A program made the position numbers and the translations under genes. This document shows, one piece after another, positions 19,615 to 25,519 of a stretch of 64,000 nucleotides of DNA. Within the stretch, counting starts at the first letter, position 1; each line of letters begins with the position of its first letter. Under the pieces are notes generated by a model. It had not been told where the DNA came from. It saw only the letters and a list, made by a program, of their open reading frames with translations, and did not search any database. The stretch is taken from assembly GCF_904848165.1 (NCBI RefSeq), contig NZ_LR884459.1, forward strand, positions 124,001-188,000, read 5' to 3'. The stretch is from Psychrobacter arenosus (GTDB lineage: Bacteria; Pseudomonadota; Gammaproteobacteria; Pseudomonadales; Moraxellaceae).

Positions 19615-20616
19615 CTACTGCTTAGCAATCCTAGTTGGGGTGCTGTCACCATTGACGATACTGGTAGCACTCAAGGCAATAGCTTTGATAATAGCGTTCA
19701 TATTGGCAATATCCAAGGTTGCTATCTCATCATCAACCGTATGATAGTACGGCTCATTGTCCATCTTTGAGGTAGAGATAGTATGCGCAGGGACGCCTTG
19801 AGCCGCTAAAGTGGCGTTATCAGAGCGATAGAATAAGTCTTTATCGAGATAAGGGTCAGGGTGGAACTTAAAGTTGGAGCCTTGTAAGTTTTTTTGCAAT
19901 ATCGCACCGAAATCCGATTTATCATAGCCTGTAATATAGGCAGAGTCATTGCCCCATTTACTGGGCGTGCCTATCATTTCGATATTAAACATAGCCACTA
20001 CTTGATCAGGATCAATGCTGCTAGCAAAAGCTTGCGAGCCAAAACCGCCTGCTTCTTCGCCAGAGAAGGCCACAAAGACGATACTGCGCTCATTATCATT
20101 GCGTTGCTGATAATATTTTGCCAGCTGAATCAGAGCGGTAACCCCTGATGCATCATCGTTTGCGCCATTATATATTTTATTTTTACCTGTATCTTCAGCG
20201 CTATCCTCAACCCCCAAATGGTCATAGTGCGCCGAAAAGACCACTAGCTCGTCTGGGCGACTTTTGCCGGCTATAAAACCAATCACATTACTGGTAGCGA
20301 TAGGGCCTTCAGGACCTTCTATCTCATACGCTTGTTGATAGCTGCTTAACCCTCCCCACTTTGACAGCCCCGCTGCGGCAAACTCACGTTCGATATATTG
20401 CGCCGCTTTTTTTCCCCCTACCGTGCCATCCTGACGGCCTTGCATATCATCTGCAGCGAGCGTAGATAATATCTGCTTTGTTGATGCTATGGCAATTGGA
20501 CTGGTTATGGCAACGGAATCACTAGGGGAGGTGTCTGGCTTTACACTATCGAGACTACAGCTGGATAGCAGTAGCGACAGAGGGAGGGCATAGAGCAGGG
20601 GATGAGACAACGACAT
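19615..20616 (-). CDS. M28-family zinc aminopeptidase, lipoprotein
   Basis: A 333-residue protein with a lipoprotein signal (LLLSSC, Cys about residue 20), so the enzyme is anchored in the envelope. M28 metal ligands and catalytic residues are visible in order: FSAHYDHLG (His, Asp), NGANDDASG (bridging Asp), SGEEAGGFGS (catalytic Glu and ligand Glu), FNIEMIG (Asp replaced by Glu, as in many M28 members) and a final HTVDDEI (His). No PA domain insert is visible. M28 enzymes release N-terminal amino acids from peptides. It stands alone, transcribed away from the cytochrome unit. Confidence 0.9.
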   Translation of the reverse strand: MSLSHPLLYALPLSLLLSSCSLDSVKPDTSPSDSVAITSPIAIASTKQILSTLAADDMQGRQDGTVGGKKAAQYIEREFAAAGLSKWGGLSSYQQAYEIEGPEGPIATSNVIGFIAGKSRPDELVVFSAHYDHLGVEDSAEDTGKNKIYNGANDDASGVTALIQLAKYYQQRNDNERSIVFVAFSGEEAGGFGSQAFASSIDPDQVVAMFNIEMIGTPSKWGNDSAYITGYDKSDFGAILQKNLQGSNFKFHPDPYLDKDLFYRSDNATLAAQGVPAHTISTSKMDNEPYYHTVDDEIATLDIANMNAIIKAIALSATSIVNGDSTPTRIAKQ

Positions 20617-21411: not shown

Positions 21412-22941
21412 ATGAAGCCGACTTCCGCAAAACTGTCCTTATTACCTAATATGGCTATAGCGCCCACTCCGCCTCTGCGTAAGGCTCTGCAGGTCCTGGT
21501 GTCCGCGCTGCTATTAGGCGTTGCCTCTGTACCGGCACTGGCTGCGACCCCTACCATTATTGAGAAGGCGGAACCTATTCCTGCGGTTAGCCCAGCCAAT
21601 AGTGACTTGGTCAATCGTGGTGCTTATATCGCTCGTGCAGCAGACTGTATGGCCTGCCATAGGGAGGATTATGCGGGTGGGGTGGGTATTGAGACGCCTA
21701 TGGGCAAGGTGTATGCGACCAATATCACTCCGTCTGTCCGTTATGGTATCGGCAACTATACCGAGCAAGACCTCAAAAATGCCTTAAAAAGAGGCCGCGC
21801 GCCCGATCATCAACTTTATCCGGCTATGCCATATCCTTCCTACAGCGGCATGACGGATGGGGATATTCACGCCTTATTTGCCTATCTACAAACCGTGCCT
21901 GCGGTGGATGAAGCTTCCCCTCATAAAACCGAGTTGCCCTTTCCTTTTAATATTCGTACGCTCATGAAATTCTGGAACGTGATCAACGTCCCTGCTTGGG
22001 AAGCACGCACGGACTTGGATGCAACTCAGCAGCGCGGCGAATATCTGGTTAATAATCTTGAGCACTGCGCTACTTGCCATACCCCGCGCGATAGCACTAT
22101 GGGCTATAACAAAAGCTTGTATATGGCAGGGGCACAGTTGGGCAATTGGCATGCGCCTAATATCACCCCTGATGAGGCGAGTGGTATAGGGTCATGGAGT
22201 GAGACGGATATCGCCACCTATCTGCGTACCGGTCACTTAGAGAATCGTGCCTTTGCGGGCGGTCCTATGGGGGAGGCGGTGGCTCATAGTACCCGCTATC
22301 TCACAACGGAAGACTTAAGGGCGATTGCCTCCTATTTGAAAGTCATTCCCGCTGTGCGAACAGAAGACACGCTACAGCCGCTCAATACTGCCAAGCTTCC
22401 ACAAAAAGCGAATGATGAGATTACCTTTAACCTTATCGATCAGATGAAACATATCGAGCAAGCCAAGCTCAAAGCGGGAGCGGCTGCGGGTGGCACAGTC
22501 GCCGCTACTTCCGAGGCGTTATATTTGGCTAAATGTGCCAGCTGTCATGGCGTCGATGGTTATGGACAGCCCGAAGCCCGTTATGCGCCTATCGTCGGCA
22601 TAAGCACGCTACGCCGCGACCAACCTAACGCCGTGGTGAACGTCATCGCCCATGGGATCGAAGGGGCTACCAATACCAGTCCGCAAATGCCAGGTTTTAA
22701 AGACGAGCTCAGCGCTGAGCAGATTGCAGGCCTCGCTAATTATGTGCGCGTCACTTTTGGCGGTATGAGCGACAGCCAGGTCACAGCAGAGCAAGTCGAT
22801 AATATTATGACGGCCCCTGCGGATGTGCCTTTCCTGATTAAAAATGCCGGCTGGTTAGCATGGTTGGGCATTATAGCTTTGGTACTGCTGCTAGGATTGT
22901 TGATTTGGTGCTTGTTGCGCCGGATGAGTGACGTGAGATAA
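21412..22941 (+). CDS. Membrane-anchored triheme cytochrome c
   Basis: I chose the ATG at 21412, preceded by GAGGAAATT. Upstream in-frame ATGs exist but lack a ribosome site. The 509-residue product has a Sec signal (cleavage after SVPALA) and three CXXCH heme sites: CMACH at 79-83, CATCH at 219-223 and CASCH at 375-379. A C-terminal membrane helix lies at about 480-500 (LAWLGIIALVLLLGLLIW), followed by arginines. The layout matches the triheme cytochrome subunit of membrane alcohol/gluconate dehydrogenases, which passes electrons to ubiquinone or oxidase. No such dehydrogenase gene is adjacent; a flavin amine oxidase follows 130 bp downstream. Confidence 0.9.
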   Translation: MKPTSAKLSLLPNMAIAPTPPLRKALQVLVSALLLGVASVPALAATPTIIEKAEPIPAVSPANSDLVNRGAYIARAADCMACHREDYAGGVGIETPMGKVYATNITPSVRYGIGNYTEQDLKNALKRGRAPDHQLYPAMPYPSYSGMTDGDIHALFAYLQTVPAVDEASPHKTELPFPFNIRTLMKFWNVINVPAWEARTDLDATQQRGEYLVNNLEHCATCHTPRDSTMGYNKSLYMAGAQLGNWHAPNITPDEASGIGSWSETDIATYLRTGHLENRAFAGGPMGEAVAHSTRYLTTEDLRAIASYLKVIPAVRTEDTLQPLNTAKLPQKANDEITFNLIDQMKHIEQAKLKAGAAAGGTVAATSEALYLAKCASCHGVDGYGQPEARYAPIVGISTLRRDQPNAVVNVIAHGIEGATNTSPQMPGFKDELSAEQIAGLANYVRVTFGGMSDSQVTAEQVDNIMTAPADVPFLIKNAGWLAWLGIIALVLLLGLLIWCLLRRMSDVR

Positions 22942-23071
22942 GGCCAGCTGGGCACAAAAAAGATTGTGAAGATTGTTAGTCAGTATGTGAAGACCGTTAT
23001 TAAGTATAAAACACATTATAAAACCAAAAGTAATAACCGGTCGGACAGCCAGCGATAATAAGGATAAGACT

Positions 23072-24673
23072 ATGAGCACTATGTTTCAATCACCGACCCG
23101 CCGCCAACTACTAAGCATGATAGGCAAGACTGCGGGGGCGACCGCTATGTATCAGGCCATGACCACCTTAGGCTTTGCTTCAGAGTCCAGCTTTAAAGAA
23201 GAGATGGCGCTGACGGGGGCACCACCGGGCGCTAGTATCATTATCTTAGGGGCAGGGCTAGCAGGACTGACGGCCGCTTATGAGCTTCGTAAGGCGGGCT
23301 ATCAAGTCAAAGTACTCGAGTTTCAAAATCGGGGTGGTGGGCGCAGTTGGACCTTAAATAGTGGCGATAAGTTCACTGAGCTCAGCGGCGAGGAGGTCTC
23401 ATGCGATTTTGTCGAGGGCAATTATCTAAACCCAGGCCCTTGGCGTCTGCCCAGCCATCACTATGCTGTGCTGCACTATTGCAAGAAGTTTGGCGTCAAG
23501 CTAGAGCCCTTTATCCAGACCAATGACCGCGCCTATTTGCACCGCACTGGGCATTTTAAAGGTGTGCCGCAGCGGTTGGGCGATGTCAAAGTCGATATTC
23601 GCGGCTATGTGTCTGAGCTATTGTCCAAGTCGGTCAACGTAGGTGGCTTAGATCGCTCAGTGACTAAGGAAGATAAAGAGAAGCTGTTAGAGAATCTCAA
23701 GGACTGGGGGGCGCTTAATAAAGACTACCGCTATGTGCAAAGTCAACGCGTCAGTAATTACCGCGGCTATGGCGTCTACGCTGGGGGCGGGCAAATGCCA
23801 GGCGCCGTTTCCTCACAACCCATTCCCTTTAGTGCCTTAGTACAGTCTGGCGTCTGGGCGGATATCTCGGATAATTTTAATGTGGTCAACCATCACCCGA
23901 CCATGTTTCAGCCGGTAGGGGGCATGGGTAAGATTGGCGATGCTTTCACCCGTGAATGCCAAGAGATGATTACGCTCAATGCGCGCGTGACCCGTATCCA
24001 CCAAGATGCTAGCGGAGTCACCGTGGATTACGTCGACAGTAATGGCGCTGATAGCACTCCTAAAACTGCCCGTGCCGACTGGTGTATTTGTACTATTCCT
24101 CTCACTGTATTAAGCCAGATTCCTATCAACGTCTCTACGGCAATGAGTCAGGCTATCGCTGCTGTACCGTATGATACTTCGTTTAAAGTAGGGCTCGAGT
24201 TTAACCGACGCTTTTGGGAAGAGGACGAGTGGATTTATGGCGGCGTATCCTATACTGATATGCCTATTACGCAGATCTCCTATCCGTCGCAAGATATGTT
24301 TAGCGATAAGCCAGGGGTTTTGCTAGGGGGTTATGGCTTTGGGCCCACTTCCTATAAATGGAGCACCATGACCTCTAAAGAGCGTGTGGCTGCAGCTGTG
24401 GCGTATGGTAAGCATATCCATCCCCAGTATAAAAAAGAGTTTCGCACAGGCACCTCGGTCGCTTGGCACCGTATCCCTTGGACGCTAGGGTGTTACGGCA
24501 TTTGGAGTGACTCGAGTCGTGAGCAATACTACGATACGCTATGCAGTATTGATAATCGTATTGCCTTAGCGGGCGAGCATTGCTCCCACATTCCTGCTTG
24601 GCAGGAGGGCGCGATATTGTCGGGCTTAGACACGGCCAATCGGCTACATAAAAGAGCGAAGTTGGCGGTATAG
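23072..24673 (+). CDS. Tat-exported flavin monoamine oxidase/dehydrogenase
   Basis: A 533-residue FAD amine oxidase. A twin-arginine signal is at residues 8-16 (SPTRRQLLSMIG), so the folded flavoprotein should be exported. The dinucleotide fold GAGLAGLTAAYELRKAG (about 58-75) ends in an Asp/Glu-type contact (VLEFQ), followed by the GGRSWT motif. The C-terminal FAD contact is LAGEHCSHIPAWQEGAILSG. The family oxidises amines or amino acids. Oxidases in the cytoplasm use O2, whereas this one sits between two cytochrome c genes. A dehydrogenase role delivering electrons to cytochrome c, as described for NicA2-type enzymes, is inferred. The substrate is unknown. Confidence 0.88.
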   Translation: MSTMFQSPTRRQLLSMIGKTAGATAMYQAMTTLGFASESSFKEEMALTGAPPGASIIILGAGLAGLTAAYELRKAGYQVKVLEFQNRGGGRSWTLNSGDKFTELSGEEVSCDFVEGNYLNPGPWRLPSHHYAVLHYCKKFGVKLEPFIQTNDRAYLHRTGHFKGVPQRLGDVKVDIRGYVSELLSKSVNVGGLDRSVTKEDKEKLLENLKDWGALNKDYRYVQSQRVSNYRGYGVYAGGGQMPGAVSSQPIPFSALVQSGVWADISDNFNVVNHHPTMFQPVGGMGKIGDAFTRECQEMITLNARVTRIHQDASGVTVDYVDSNGADSTPKTARADWCICTIPLTVLSQIPINVSTAMSQAIAAVPYDTSFKVGLEFNRRFWEEDEWIYGGVSYTDMPITQISYPSQDMFSDKPGVLLGGYGFGPTSYKWSTMTSKERVAAAVAYGKHIHPQYKKEFRTGTSVAWHRIPWTLGCYGIWSDSSREQYYDTLCSIDNRIALAGEHCSHIPAWQEGAILSGLDTANRLHKRAKLAV

Positions 24674-24708
24674 CCAGCAGCCATAGTTTATGAAATAAAG
24701 AGGCTTAT

Positions 24709-25407
24709 ATGACTTATTCTACTTATCGCTTTGGCAGTCGGGCTTTTATTCCTAGCAAGTTGGCGCTCGCTATCCTATGTGCCGCTGCTGTGCTTGTGGG
24801 ACTGCCGGGGTGCTCATCGTCCAACGATGCCGATGCTGTGACCTTAGCAGATGGCGGCAACACTATGGATGGCAATAATACCCCCACAGCCTTTGGCGTC
24901 AATGCAGAAGCGTTTGATGTGCAGGGCAGTCGCAATAGCGGGGCTTGGGGCAGCGTTTATATGAACAAAGCTGAATTGAAGGAGACGCAAAGAGACATCG
25001 TGGATTATGACTCAATCCCTGCTTTCGCTGATGACCCGGAGTTGAAGAAGTGGCAGGTAAAATTTGGTAGTGAAAATGCCTTTGATGGTACCGATGGGGC
25101 TAAGCTTTATCATGACTCTTGTGCAGGCTGTCATATGCATAAAGGGGAGGGCGCTGTTGGCGCTGGGTATTATCCCCCCTTGGCCAATAATACGAAAATG
25201 GAGTCGAAGTATTATATTATCGATATCTTAATTAATGGCTTCCGTGGCATGCCGTCTTTTCATGCGATGATGAATGACGAACAGATGGCAGCTGTTACGC
25301 AGTATGTGGTCACGGAGTTAAATGGCTATAAGGACACAGTAACGGCTGCTGATGTAGCGCAGCTTCGCCATGATGATCCGCCGGGTGGCGACCCTTCTGA
25401 TCATTAA
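24709..25407 (+). CDS. Monoheme cytochrome c lipoprotein
   Basis: A 232-residue protein with a lipoprotein signal ending GLPGC (Cys35) and one CXXCH site (CAGCH, residues 138-142). The likely distal Met is in NGFRGMPSFHAMM. About 90 residues between the lipid anchor and the cytochrome fold are polar. It lies 35 bp after the amine oxidase with a strong terminator behind it, so it closes the unit. It is the natural candidate for the direct electron acceptor of the flavoenzyme, passing electrons to the triheme protein or an oxidase. Confidence 0.88.
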   Translation: MTYSTYRFGSRAFIPSKLALAILCAAAVLVGLPGCSSSNDADAVTLADGGNTMDGNNTPTAFGVNAEAFDVQGSRNSGAWGSVYMNKAELKETQRDIVDYDSIPAFADDPELKKWQVKFGSENAFDGTDGAKLYHDSCAGCHMHKGEGAVGAGYYPPLANNTKMESKYYIIDILINGFRGMPSFHAMMNDEQMAAVTQYVVTELNGYKDTVTAADVAQLRHDDPPGGDPSDH

Positions 25408-25432
25408 AACCTATCGTATTTACCTTGTCTAA

Positions 25433-25465
25433 GAAAGCGCCCCTAATCATAGCGGCGCTTTTTTG
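25433..25465. terminator. Terminator between the cytochrome unit and the methyltransferase
   Basis: AAGCGCC...GGCGCTTTTTT hairpin, 30 bp beyond the cytochrome stop. It lies between convergent genes, with A- and T-rich flanks on both sides, so it may serve both. Confidence 0.8.
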
Positions 25466-25519
25466 TTGCATAACTTTTATTATAAAGGCTGTCTTACCGA
25501 TACTAATAAGGTATTGGCA

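Follow-up and report, generated by a model that had tools for sequence, protein, structure and literature searches.

The locus

Three genes lie in a row on the + strand of a 64,000-nucleotide stretch (the window; G000:C1:124001-188000) of the single-contig, 3.70 Mb genome of Psychrobacter arenosus. They occupy 21412-25407 and encode, in the order CYT3-FLAV-CYT1, a triheme cytochrome c, a flavoenzyme with a twin-arginine translocation (Tat) signal, and a monoheme cytochrome c; together they are called the triad here. The genes and their features (aa, amino acids) are:

21412..22941, + strand: CYT3, triheme cytochrome c, 509 aa, Sec-type signal, C-terminal hydrophobic helix
21646..21660, + strand: CYT3 heme site 1, CMACH, aa 79
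22066..22080, + strand: CYT3 heme site 2, CATCH, aa 219
22534..22548, + strand: CYT3 heme site 3, CASCH, aa 375
22852..22917, + strand: CYT3 C-terminal hydrophobic helix, possible anchor
23072..24673, + strand: FLAV, Tat flavoenzyme of the Rhodococcus opacus L-amino acid oxidase type, 533 aa
23099..23185, + strand: FLAV Tat segment, aa 10-38, motif TRRQLL, possible uncleaved anchor
23249..23266, + strand: GAGLAG of the FAD-binding fold, FLAV
23435..23455, + strand: GPWRLPS with carboxylate-binding Arg125 and the preceding Trp, FLAV
24709..25407, + strand: CYT1, monoheme class I cytochrome c lipoprotein, 232 aa
24811..24813, + strand: CYT1 lipobox Cys35 (coordinate computed from the aa number)
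25120..25134, + strand: CYT1 heme site CAGCH
25249-25251, + strand: likely Met181 ligand of the CYT1 heme
25430..25465 (25425-25470 with wider bounds), + strand: intrinsic terminator, hairpin and T run (-18.4 kcal/mol, z -4.63)

The original prediction had placed the genes in this order on one strand and closed the block with a single terminator. The open reading frame (ORF) calls agree, and a hairpin as good as the one 3' of CYT1 arises in 0/200 shuffles. The spacing had been called tight, which holds for FLAV and CYT1 (35 bp apart) but not for CYT3 and FLAV, whose gap is 130 bp. That first gap carries no promoter-like site on the + strand, and the region shows no excess of such sites (four, versus a mean of 6.4 in shuffled DNA). 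The same-strand neighbours of CYT3 are FLAV and CYT1; the operon has no GMC large subunit with its small subunit, and the three-gene block has no peroxidase gene.

FLAV as an enzyme of L-amino acid oxidase type

FLAV is a member of the PF01593 superfamily (E 1.2e-53; 183.4 bits, cut-off 19.8; profile positions 1-442 of 443), and this match together with the TRRQLL motif bears out the exported FAD enzyme that had been predicted. By sequence, its best solved relative is the L-amino acid oxidase (LAAO) of R. opacus (2jae; E 1.6e-84; 34-36% identity), followed by a reconstructed tetrapod LAAO (E 3.2e-41). With the AlphaFold2 model of FLAV (33 sequences, mean pLDDT 91.3, pTM 0.85), Foldseek ranks 1-3 are all R. 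opacus LAAO (TM 0.95 by target length, rmsd 1.8 Å), the top entry being the complex with L-alanine. All of the first 44 of the 50 matches listed are oxidases of L-amino acids, L-glutamate or L-lysine; no monoamine oxidase ranks higher than 48. The DAO family (PF01266), to which FLAV does not belong, matches only aa 56-93, the FAD-binding fold (E 1.2e-6). By sequence and by fold, FLAV is thus of the R. opacus L-amino acid oxidase type.

Arg125, Lys372, Trp465 and Trp510 are identical in 71/71 aligned rows, the window and the R. opacus enzyme included, and Tyr421 is kept in 68/71. In the 2JAE/2JB structures the counterparts of Arg125 and Tyr421 bind the substrate carboxylate, and those of the Lys and Trp residues belong to the active site. 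Because the carboxylate-binding Arg is invariant and the sequence and fold are of LAAO type, we read FLAV as an L-amino acid dehydrogenase and not as a NicA2-like amine dehydrogenase. The kinship with NicA2 and the amine substrate of the original prediction are not supported.

The residue before Arg125 varies with the gene neighbourhood. It is Trp in all 22 rows with CYT3, in 23/26 rows with a cytochrome and RidA (Ala in the other three), in 8/8 rows with a cytochrome only and in 3/6 rows with neither; it is Ala in 8/8 rows with RidA only, and Thr in the R. opacus oxidase. A filter for residues marking the CYT3 branch is passed by A363, T489 and C504 only. C504 (window 24581-24583) stands beside a conserved AGEH motif and is present in 22/22 CYT3-branch rows, compared with at most one fifth of the 34 other cytochrome-linked rows.

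Conservation of the triad

Hidden Markov models (HMMs) and phmmer were used to tabulate the neighbours of 127 widely flanked FLAV genes, taken from plasmids and from named and other genomes. Loci L001-L005, L085-L118 and L150-L167 stand outside this table; their flanks are short, and many repeat loci present in wider form. In Psychrobacter, CYT3 lies upstream and a monoheme cytochrome c downstream at 69/69 FLAV genes (68 loci), and overall the triad is found at 79/127. The block, whose conservation across genomes the original prediction had offered as a check, is indeed conserved and, recurring at these rates, is no chance neighbourhood. Outside Psychrobacter there are 10 triad genes on 9 distinct contigs (L071 and L149 are the same contig), in Moraxella atlantae, Rappaport israeli, three rhodobacteria, Roseinatronobacter and three G283-family genomes. 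The remaining FLAV genes have, within 4 kb, a cytochrome and RidA (26), a cytochrome without RidA on the same strand (8), RidA alone (10) or neither (4). An HMM built from 8 exported RidA proteins finds no RidA within 4 kb on either strand of any of the 79 CYT3 genes (0/79); for 70 of these genes the full 4 kb is available to each side. Four RidA-family genes lie elsewhere in the window's genome.

Within the family sample FLAV is present in 32 Psychrobacter genomes, twice in 11 of them, and at least nine genomes lack it; at L008 two triads stand in tandem. FLAV frames are split at L077 (where CYT1 is split also) and L081 (where CYT3 is), in Rappaport israeli and Psychrobacter sp. JCM 18901, possibly through sequencing errors. 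In 25/84 loci the triad occupies one shared site, with RluD-YfiH-flavodoxin upstream and TolB-TolA downstream; the other copies lie outside it, and that context marks the orthologous Psychrobacter site. A neighbouring M28 peptidase gene (19615-20616) was considered as a clue to the substrate and rejected because it is found in 0/84 tabulated loci (tblastn, E 1e-15).

The RidA neighbours of the relatives carry a hydrophobic leader in 24/37 rows by a rough test in which some rows are mis-anchored, and such frequent leaders fit imine formation in the periplasm. TonB-dependent receptor genes flank the LAAO-RidA loci L133, L134, L136, L138, L143 and L148 (PF00593 and PF07715 in 6/6 tested), which hints at uptake of a larger substrate there. 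An LAAO-cytochrome-RidA trio is carried by a plasmid of Sulfitobacter indolifex (L179), whose name refers to indole. In the window's genome, two DAO-family (PF01266) genes (L186/L187; G000:C1 near 3344586 and 2496031) each adjoin a small RidA-family gene without an obvious leader, and one of the two also scored as D-amino acid dehydrogenase-like.

Linkage of cytochromes to the exported enzyme

How widely cytochromes accompany such enzymes can be judged from a phylum sample that was not chosen for cytochromes. Of its 398 genomes, 27 have a match at E 1e-60, giving 29 FLAV genes besides two Psychrobacter hits. Among relatives at 41-56% identity, a cytochrome c gene adjoins FLAV at 18/18 (the Psychrobacter hit G008 is outside the 18); it lies no more than 0.23 kb downstream in 17 and 0.09 kb upstream in one, the second copy of G300. 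Below 40% identity the figure is 3/11. The 18/18 relatives and the triad at 69/69 Psychrobacter genes uphold the prediction of cytochromes dedicated to the flavoenzyme. A looser motif screen suggested cytochromes at L084 and L139, for which the HMM gave no confirmation. In the distant LAAO relatives L137, L138 and L143, a cytochrome with two CxxCH motifs replaces the monoheme one, and RidA is present as well.

Among NicA2 relatives, dehydrogenases that use a cytochrome have been shown to be predictable from two signposts, a Tat signal and a neighbouring cytochrome c gene (Akram et al. 2025, PMC12224317). FLAV has both, the Tat signal being assigned by its twin-arginine motif and not by SignalP. 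The main text of that paper does not contain the term "L-amino acid", nor Psychrobacter, although the latter absence is weak, organism names being missing from parts of the text. Like the NicA2/Pnao dehydrogenases (PMC12224317, PMC9396064), FLAV is of the flavin amine oxidase (FAO) superfamily, has an export signal peptide and shares an operon with cytochrome c; unlike them, its nearest structures are L-amino acid oxidases, an Arg for the carboxylate implies amino acid substrates, and the triad has an additional triheme cytochrome.

A further likeness is the lao-cccA-ridA cluster of Gluconacetobacter diazotrophicus (Rodrigues et al. 2016, PMC5053998). There a Tat L-amino acid oxidase of 533 aa, R. 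opacus-related, adjoins a cytochrome c gene, as in the triad; the triad lacks the RidA of that cluster, and in the accessible text of the paper no triheme cytochrome is mentioned. Insertion of Tn5 in lao abolishes the conversion of tryptophan to indolic products, cutting indolic compounds by about 95%, and cytochrome c maturation mutants, a result cited within the same paper, make 5% of wild-type auxin. Taken as an analogy, these mutants are the nearest genetic evidence that an LAAO of this kind may need cytochrome c. A search with the published primer for GDI2456 found no match among 264 loci, so its kinship with FLAV rests on the paper's description.

The triheme and monoheme partners

CYT3 is homologous to the cytochrome subunit of fructose dehydrogenase (7w2j; E 9.3e-88) and also matches those of glucose (8hdd) and alcohol dehydrogenases. 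Like these GMC flavocytochrome dehydrogenases the triad has a triheme cytochrome subunit; unlike them it has no GMC large and small subunits, and an LAAO-type enzyme and a monoheme cytochrome are there instead. CYT3 is rare within the Gammaproteobacteria: at E 1e-60 it matches in 1/185 sampled gammaproteobacterial genomes, the window's own. Plasmid records with a CYT3 relative number 194, and in nine fetched from outside the triad the order is small ORF-flavoprotein-cytochrome (9/9), with the flavoprotein annotated as GMC (7), choline dehydrogenase (1) or dehydrogenase large subunit (1) and the small ORF without a name in 2. The triheme subunit had been linked to alcohol dehydrogenases, and these operons support a kind that otherwise goes with sugar and alcohol dehydrogenases. 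Its use by an amine dehydrogenase had been put forward as a new combination; of its pairing with an LAAO, no description was found in the open-licence papers searched. The predicted C-terminal anchor fares less well, since the window copy has the hydrophobic helix but only some Psychrobacter copies do. Downstream of another triheme cytochrome of this kind (37% identity; L193 6907-9229, G000:C1:879906-882228) comes a cytochrome that resembles a lipoprotein and has a SoxA/TsdA domain (PF21342), so thiosulfate oxidation may be a further use of the module.

The lipoprotein character predicted for CYT1 stands in Psychrobacter, where a lipobox with Ser after the Cys occurs in 68/69 sequences (the exception is L029), but not everywhere else: no lipobox is seen in the Moraxella atlantae, rhodobacterial or G283-family loci.

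Two trees bear on the history of the partners. The enzyme tree has 71 rows. Psychrobacter is represented in it by 12 loci, two rows coming from L008; the other loci of the genus were excluded, as were L077 and L081, whose frames are broken, and L149, which duplicates the contig of L071. The rows with CYT3 form one group (22 rows, support 99/95, one change, 100% of 200 bootstrap trees), nested in the main cytochrome-linked branch, which has 56 rows (99/96), of which three lack a cytochrome neighbour. In the CYT3 tree, of 16 LAAO-linked and 9 GMC-linked sequences and one beside a TsdA-like gene, the 16 LAAO-linked rows again cluster together (96/92, 94% of bootstrap trees), separate from the GMC rows. 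CYT3 was gained once, by the cytochrome-linked LAAO branch. CYT1 is the ancestral partner and, being older on the tree, is likelier than CYT3 to be the direct acceptor of electrons from FAD. The pairs L119/L178 and L168/L169 appear on both trees, suggesting that the three genes move as a whole. A CYT3 triad (L169) and a cytochrome and RidA version (L170) occur together in the genome G712.

The Tat segment as a possible anchor

Among 69 Psychrobacter sequences, the 30 residues of FLAV from the twin arginines are 97.9% identical versus 84.3% in the mature part, ranking 1/99 windows. Two controls came from 30 Rieske loci (full-length matches exist in 39 genomes) and 24 CopA loci, in Psychrobacter genomes other than those of most FLAV rows. 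The Rieske Tat signal, which stays uncleaved, is 96.8% identical versus 87.2% in the mature part (rank 4/31, 30 sequences), and the Rieske protein matches PF10399, the Pfam model for this signal. The signal of the exported copper protein CopA, which is cleaved, shows 83.0 versus 89.8% (rank 91/106, 24 sequences). In the triad itself, the CYT1 signal peptide is divergent in Psychrobacter (31 and 46% in its two halves), and CYT3 has 46% identity over aa 26-50 and 75% over its first 25 aa, where only one sixth of pairs align. The wider CYT3 branch (the window and eight non-Psychrobacter rows) retains the pattern, 73.5 versus 61.9% (rank 11/70), and in the branch without a cytochrome the segment is below average, 39.1 versus 47.3%. 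Since the segment is over-conserved in the CYT3 branch, like that of Rieske and unlike that of CopA, the Tat helix may stay there as a membrane anchor.

Binding of a dedicated export chaperone is an alternative cause of the conservation. A cause at the DNA level (an overlapping gene or RNA) was rejected because, of the degenerate residues that are identical in the segment, 61% are encoded by differing codons; its synonymous sites are unconstrained. Over-conservation across the whole cytochrome-linked branch, suggested by identity to the window, was not upheld all-against-all outside the CYT3 branch.

The membrane L-amino acid deaminase of Proteus, which unlike FLAV belongs to the DAO family and is not known to have dedicated cytochrome c genes, provides a precedent for such an anchor. 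It oxidises L-amino acids on the outward side of the membrane, has a non-cleaved Tat anchor and is thought to feed the respiratory chain (PMC5651824). According to the same source azide lowers its activity only slightly, so coupling to the chain is not the whole story there.

Electron route

Among the respiratory genes of the window's genome are ccoN and ccoO (the cbb3 cytochrome c oxidase), CyoB, and consecutive genes for the Rieske protein, cytochrome b and cytochrome c1. On a Roseinatronobacter plasmid (L178 793-8035, NZ_CP121115.1), COX2, COX1 and a short ORF directly precede CYT3, FLAV and a cytochrome c gene, all on one strand, and COX2 has the CuA-type motif CAEFC. In that organism this position makes cytochrome c oxidase the favoured exit. 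In others the electrons may go to ubiquinone, which is given as the acceptor of three-heme membrane dehydrogenases in a review, with some entries asterisked (PMC9171043).

The following sequence of events can be proposed. FLAV would fold with FAD in the cytoplasm and then be exported by Tat, its Tat helix probably being kept as a membrane anchor in the CYT3 branch. Arg125 would hold the L-amino acid while FAD takes a hydride, and the imino acid product would hydrolyse to a 2-oxo acid and ammonia. Reduced FAD would give up single electrons to CYT1, and CYT3 would connect to the respiratory chain, at cytochrome c oxidase (cbb3 in the window's genome) or ubiquinone, as with its membrane dehydrogenase relatives.

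Interpretation and alternatives

The triad is probably a periplasmic cytochrome c-linked L-amino acid dehydrogenase that feeds respiration instead of making hydrogen peroxide; such an enzyme would use O2 poorly. A fuller version is tentative and, taken as a whole, somewhat doubtful: a respiratory L-amino acid:cytochrome c (or quinone) oxidoreductase that is anchored in the membrane and arose once from a cytochrome-linked LAAO and a sugar-dehydrogenase-type triheme module, in which the retained Tat helix would replace the missing small subunit in anchoring and docking. This complex could be the phenylalanine deaminase to which Psychrobacter phenylpyruvicus owes its name, a phenotype not known to have been assigned to a gene. 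A literature search (title or start of abstract) found no paper on phenylalanine deaminase in Psychrobacter, the passages of one concerning Oligella.

Several observations weigh against a respiratory L-amino acid dehydrogenase or parts of it. We found no activity, O2 rate or substrate for any member of the CYT3 branch. RidA accompanies 26/34 cytochrome-linked FLAV genes without CYT3 and is missing near every CYT3 gene, so the substrate of the CYT3 branch could differ. The relatives L082-L084, at 51-52% identity, have no cytochrome neighbour by HMM; the R. opacus enzyme falls outside the main cytochrome-linked branch, where it is weakly placed (73/38), and the diheme-linked trio L137, L138 and L143 does so too. 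For the anchor, the conservation argument has one positive and one negative control, and in cytochrome-linked relatives without CYT3 the Tat segment is average (53.9 versus 56.0%). The Ser after the lipobox Cys of CYT1 would, by the E. coli rule, mean an outer-membrane destination, away from CYT3. The loss of indolic products in G. diazotrophicus cannot be due to lao alone, because cccA and ridA transcripts fell too in the lao mutants (PMC5053998). The O2-linked Lys372 is kept in FLAV, though known dehydrogenases have such a Lys too (PMC12224317).

An ordinary exported L-amino acid oxidase that forms H2O2, with the cytochromes as side partners in peroxide disposal or another pathway, would account for that Lys, and oxidase is also the name given to the R. 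opacus LAAO and other close structures. We nevertheless think it unlikely, in view of the cytochrome genes that adjoin all 18 relatives above 40% identity in the phylum sample, the absence of a peroxidase gene from the block and the published signpost test, which ties this layout to poor O2 use (PMC12224317). Still less probable is a periplasmic amine dehydrogenase of the NicA2/Pnao kind, in which FAD oxidises an amine free of carboxylate and the cytochromes take the electrons. The superfamily, the Tat signal and the adjacent cytochrome c are the same, and the cytochrome-using mechanism has been demonstrated for NicA2 and Pnao (PMC9396064). However, the Foldseek ranking and the invariant Arg125 point to amino acids, and no NicA2 entry was recognised among the 60 of 103 PDB sequence matches listed.

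A different order of electron flow can be imagined within the respiratory dehydrogenase, and its probability overlaps with that of the dehydrogenase itself. CYT3 would be the direct acceptor from FAD and the membrane base, GMC-style, and CYT1 the exit to an oxidase or to the outer membrane. It draws on the relatives of CYT3, which are subunits of FAD dehydrogenase complexes (7w2j, 8hdd), on the over-conservation of the Tat segment in the CYT3 branch only, on the Ser at +2 of the CYT1 lipobox, and on the triheme subunit of membrane alcohol dehydrogenase, which reduces ubiquinone (PMC9171043). Against this, CYT1 is the earlier partner and has been retained beside each of the 79 tabulated CYT3 genes, and no GMC or small subunit is present for CYT3 to dock with. 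We regard this order as possible but rather doubtful, and prefer CYT1 as the likelier first acceptor, in the order that the original prediction had given (FAD, lipoprotein cytochrome, triheme protein).

Significance

Relatives of FLAV are commonly annotated as flavin monoamine oxidase, a name that suggests an amine oxidase making H2O2. If the respiratory reading is right, a large LAAO-like branch of the Pseudomonadota uses amino acids to conserve energy beyond the inner membrane, and cytochrome use, found in 2025 for amine dehydrogenases, would extend to the L-amino acid oxidase branch. In one sub-branch, parts of two known kinds would have come together in a new flavocytochrome complex, and the triad would be a clean test case for a Tat signal peptide turning into a functional anchor.

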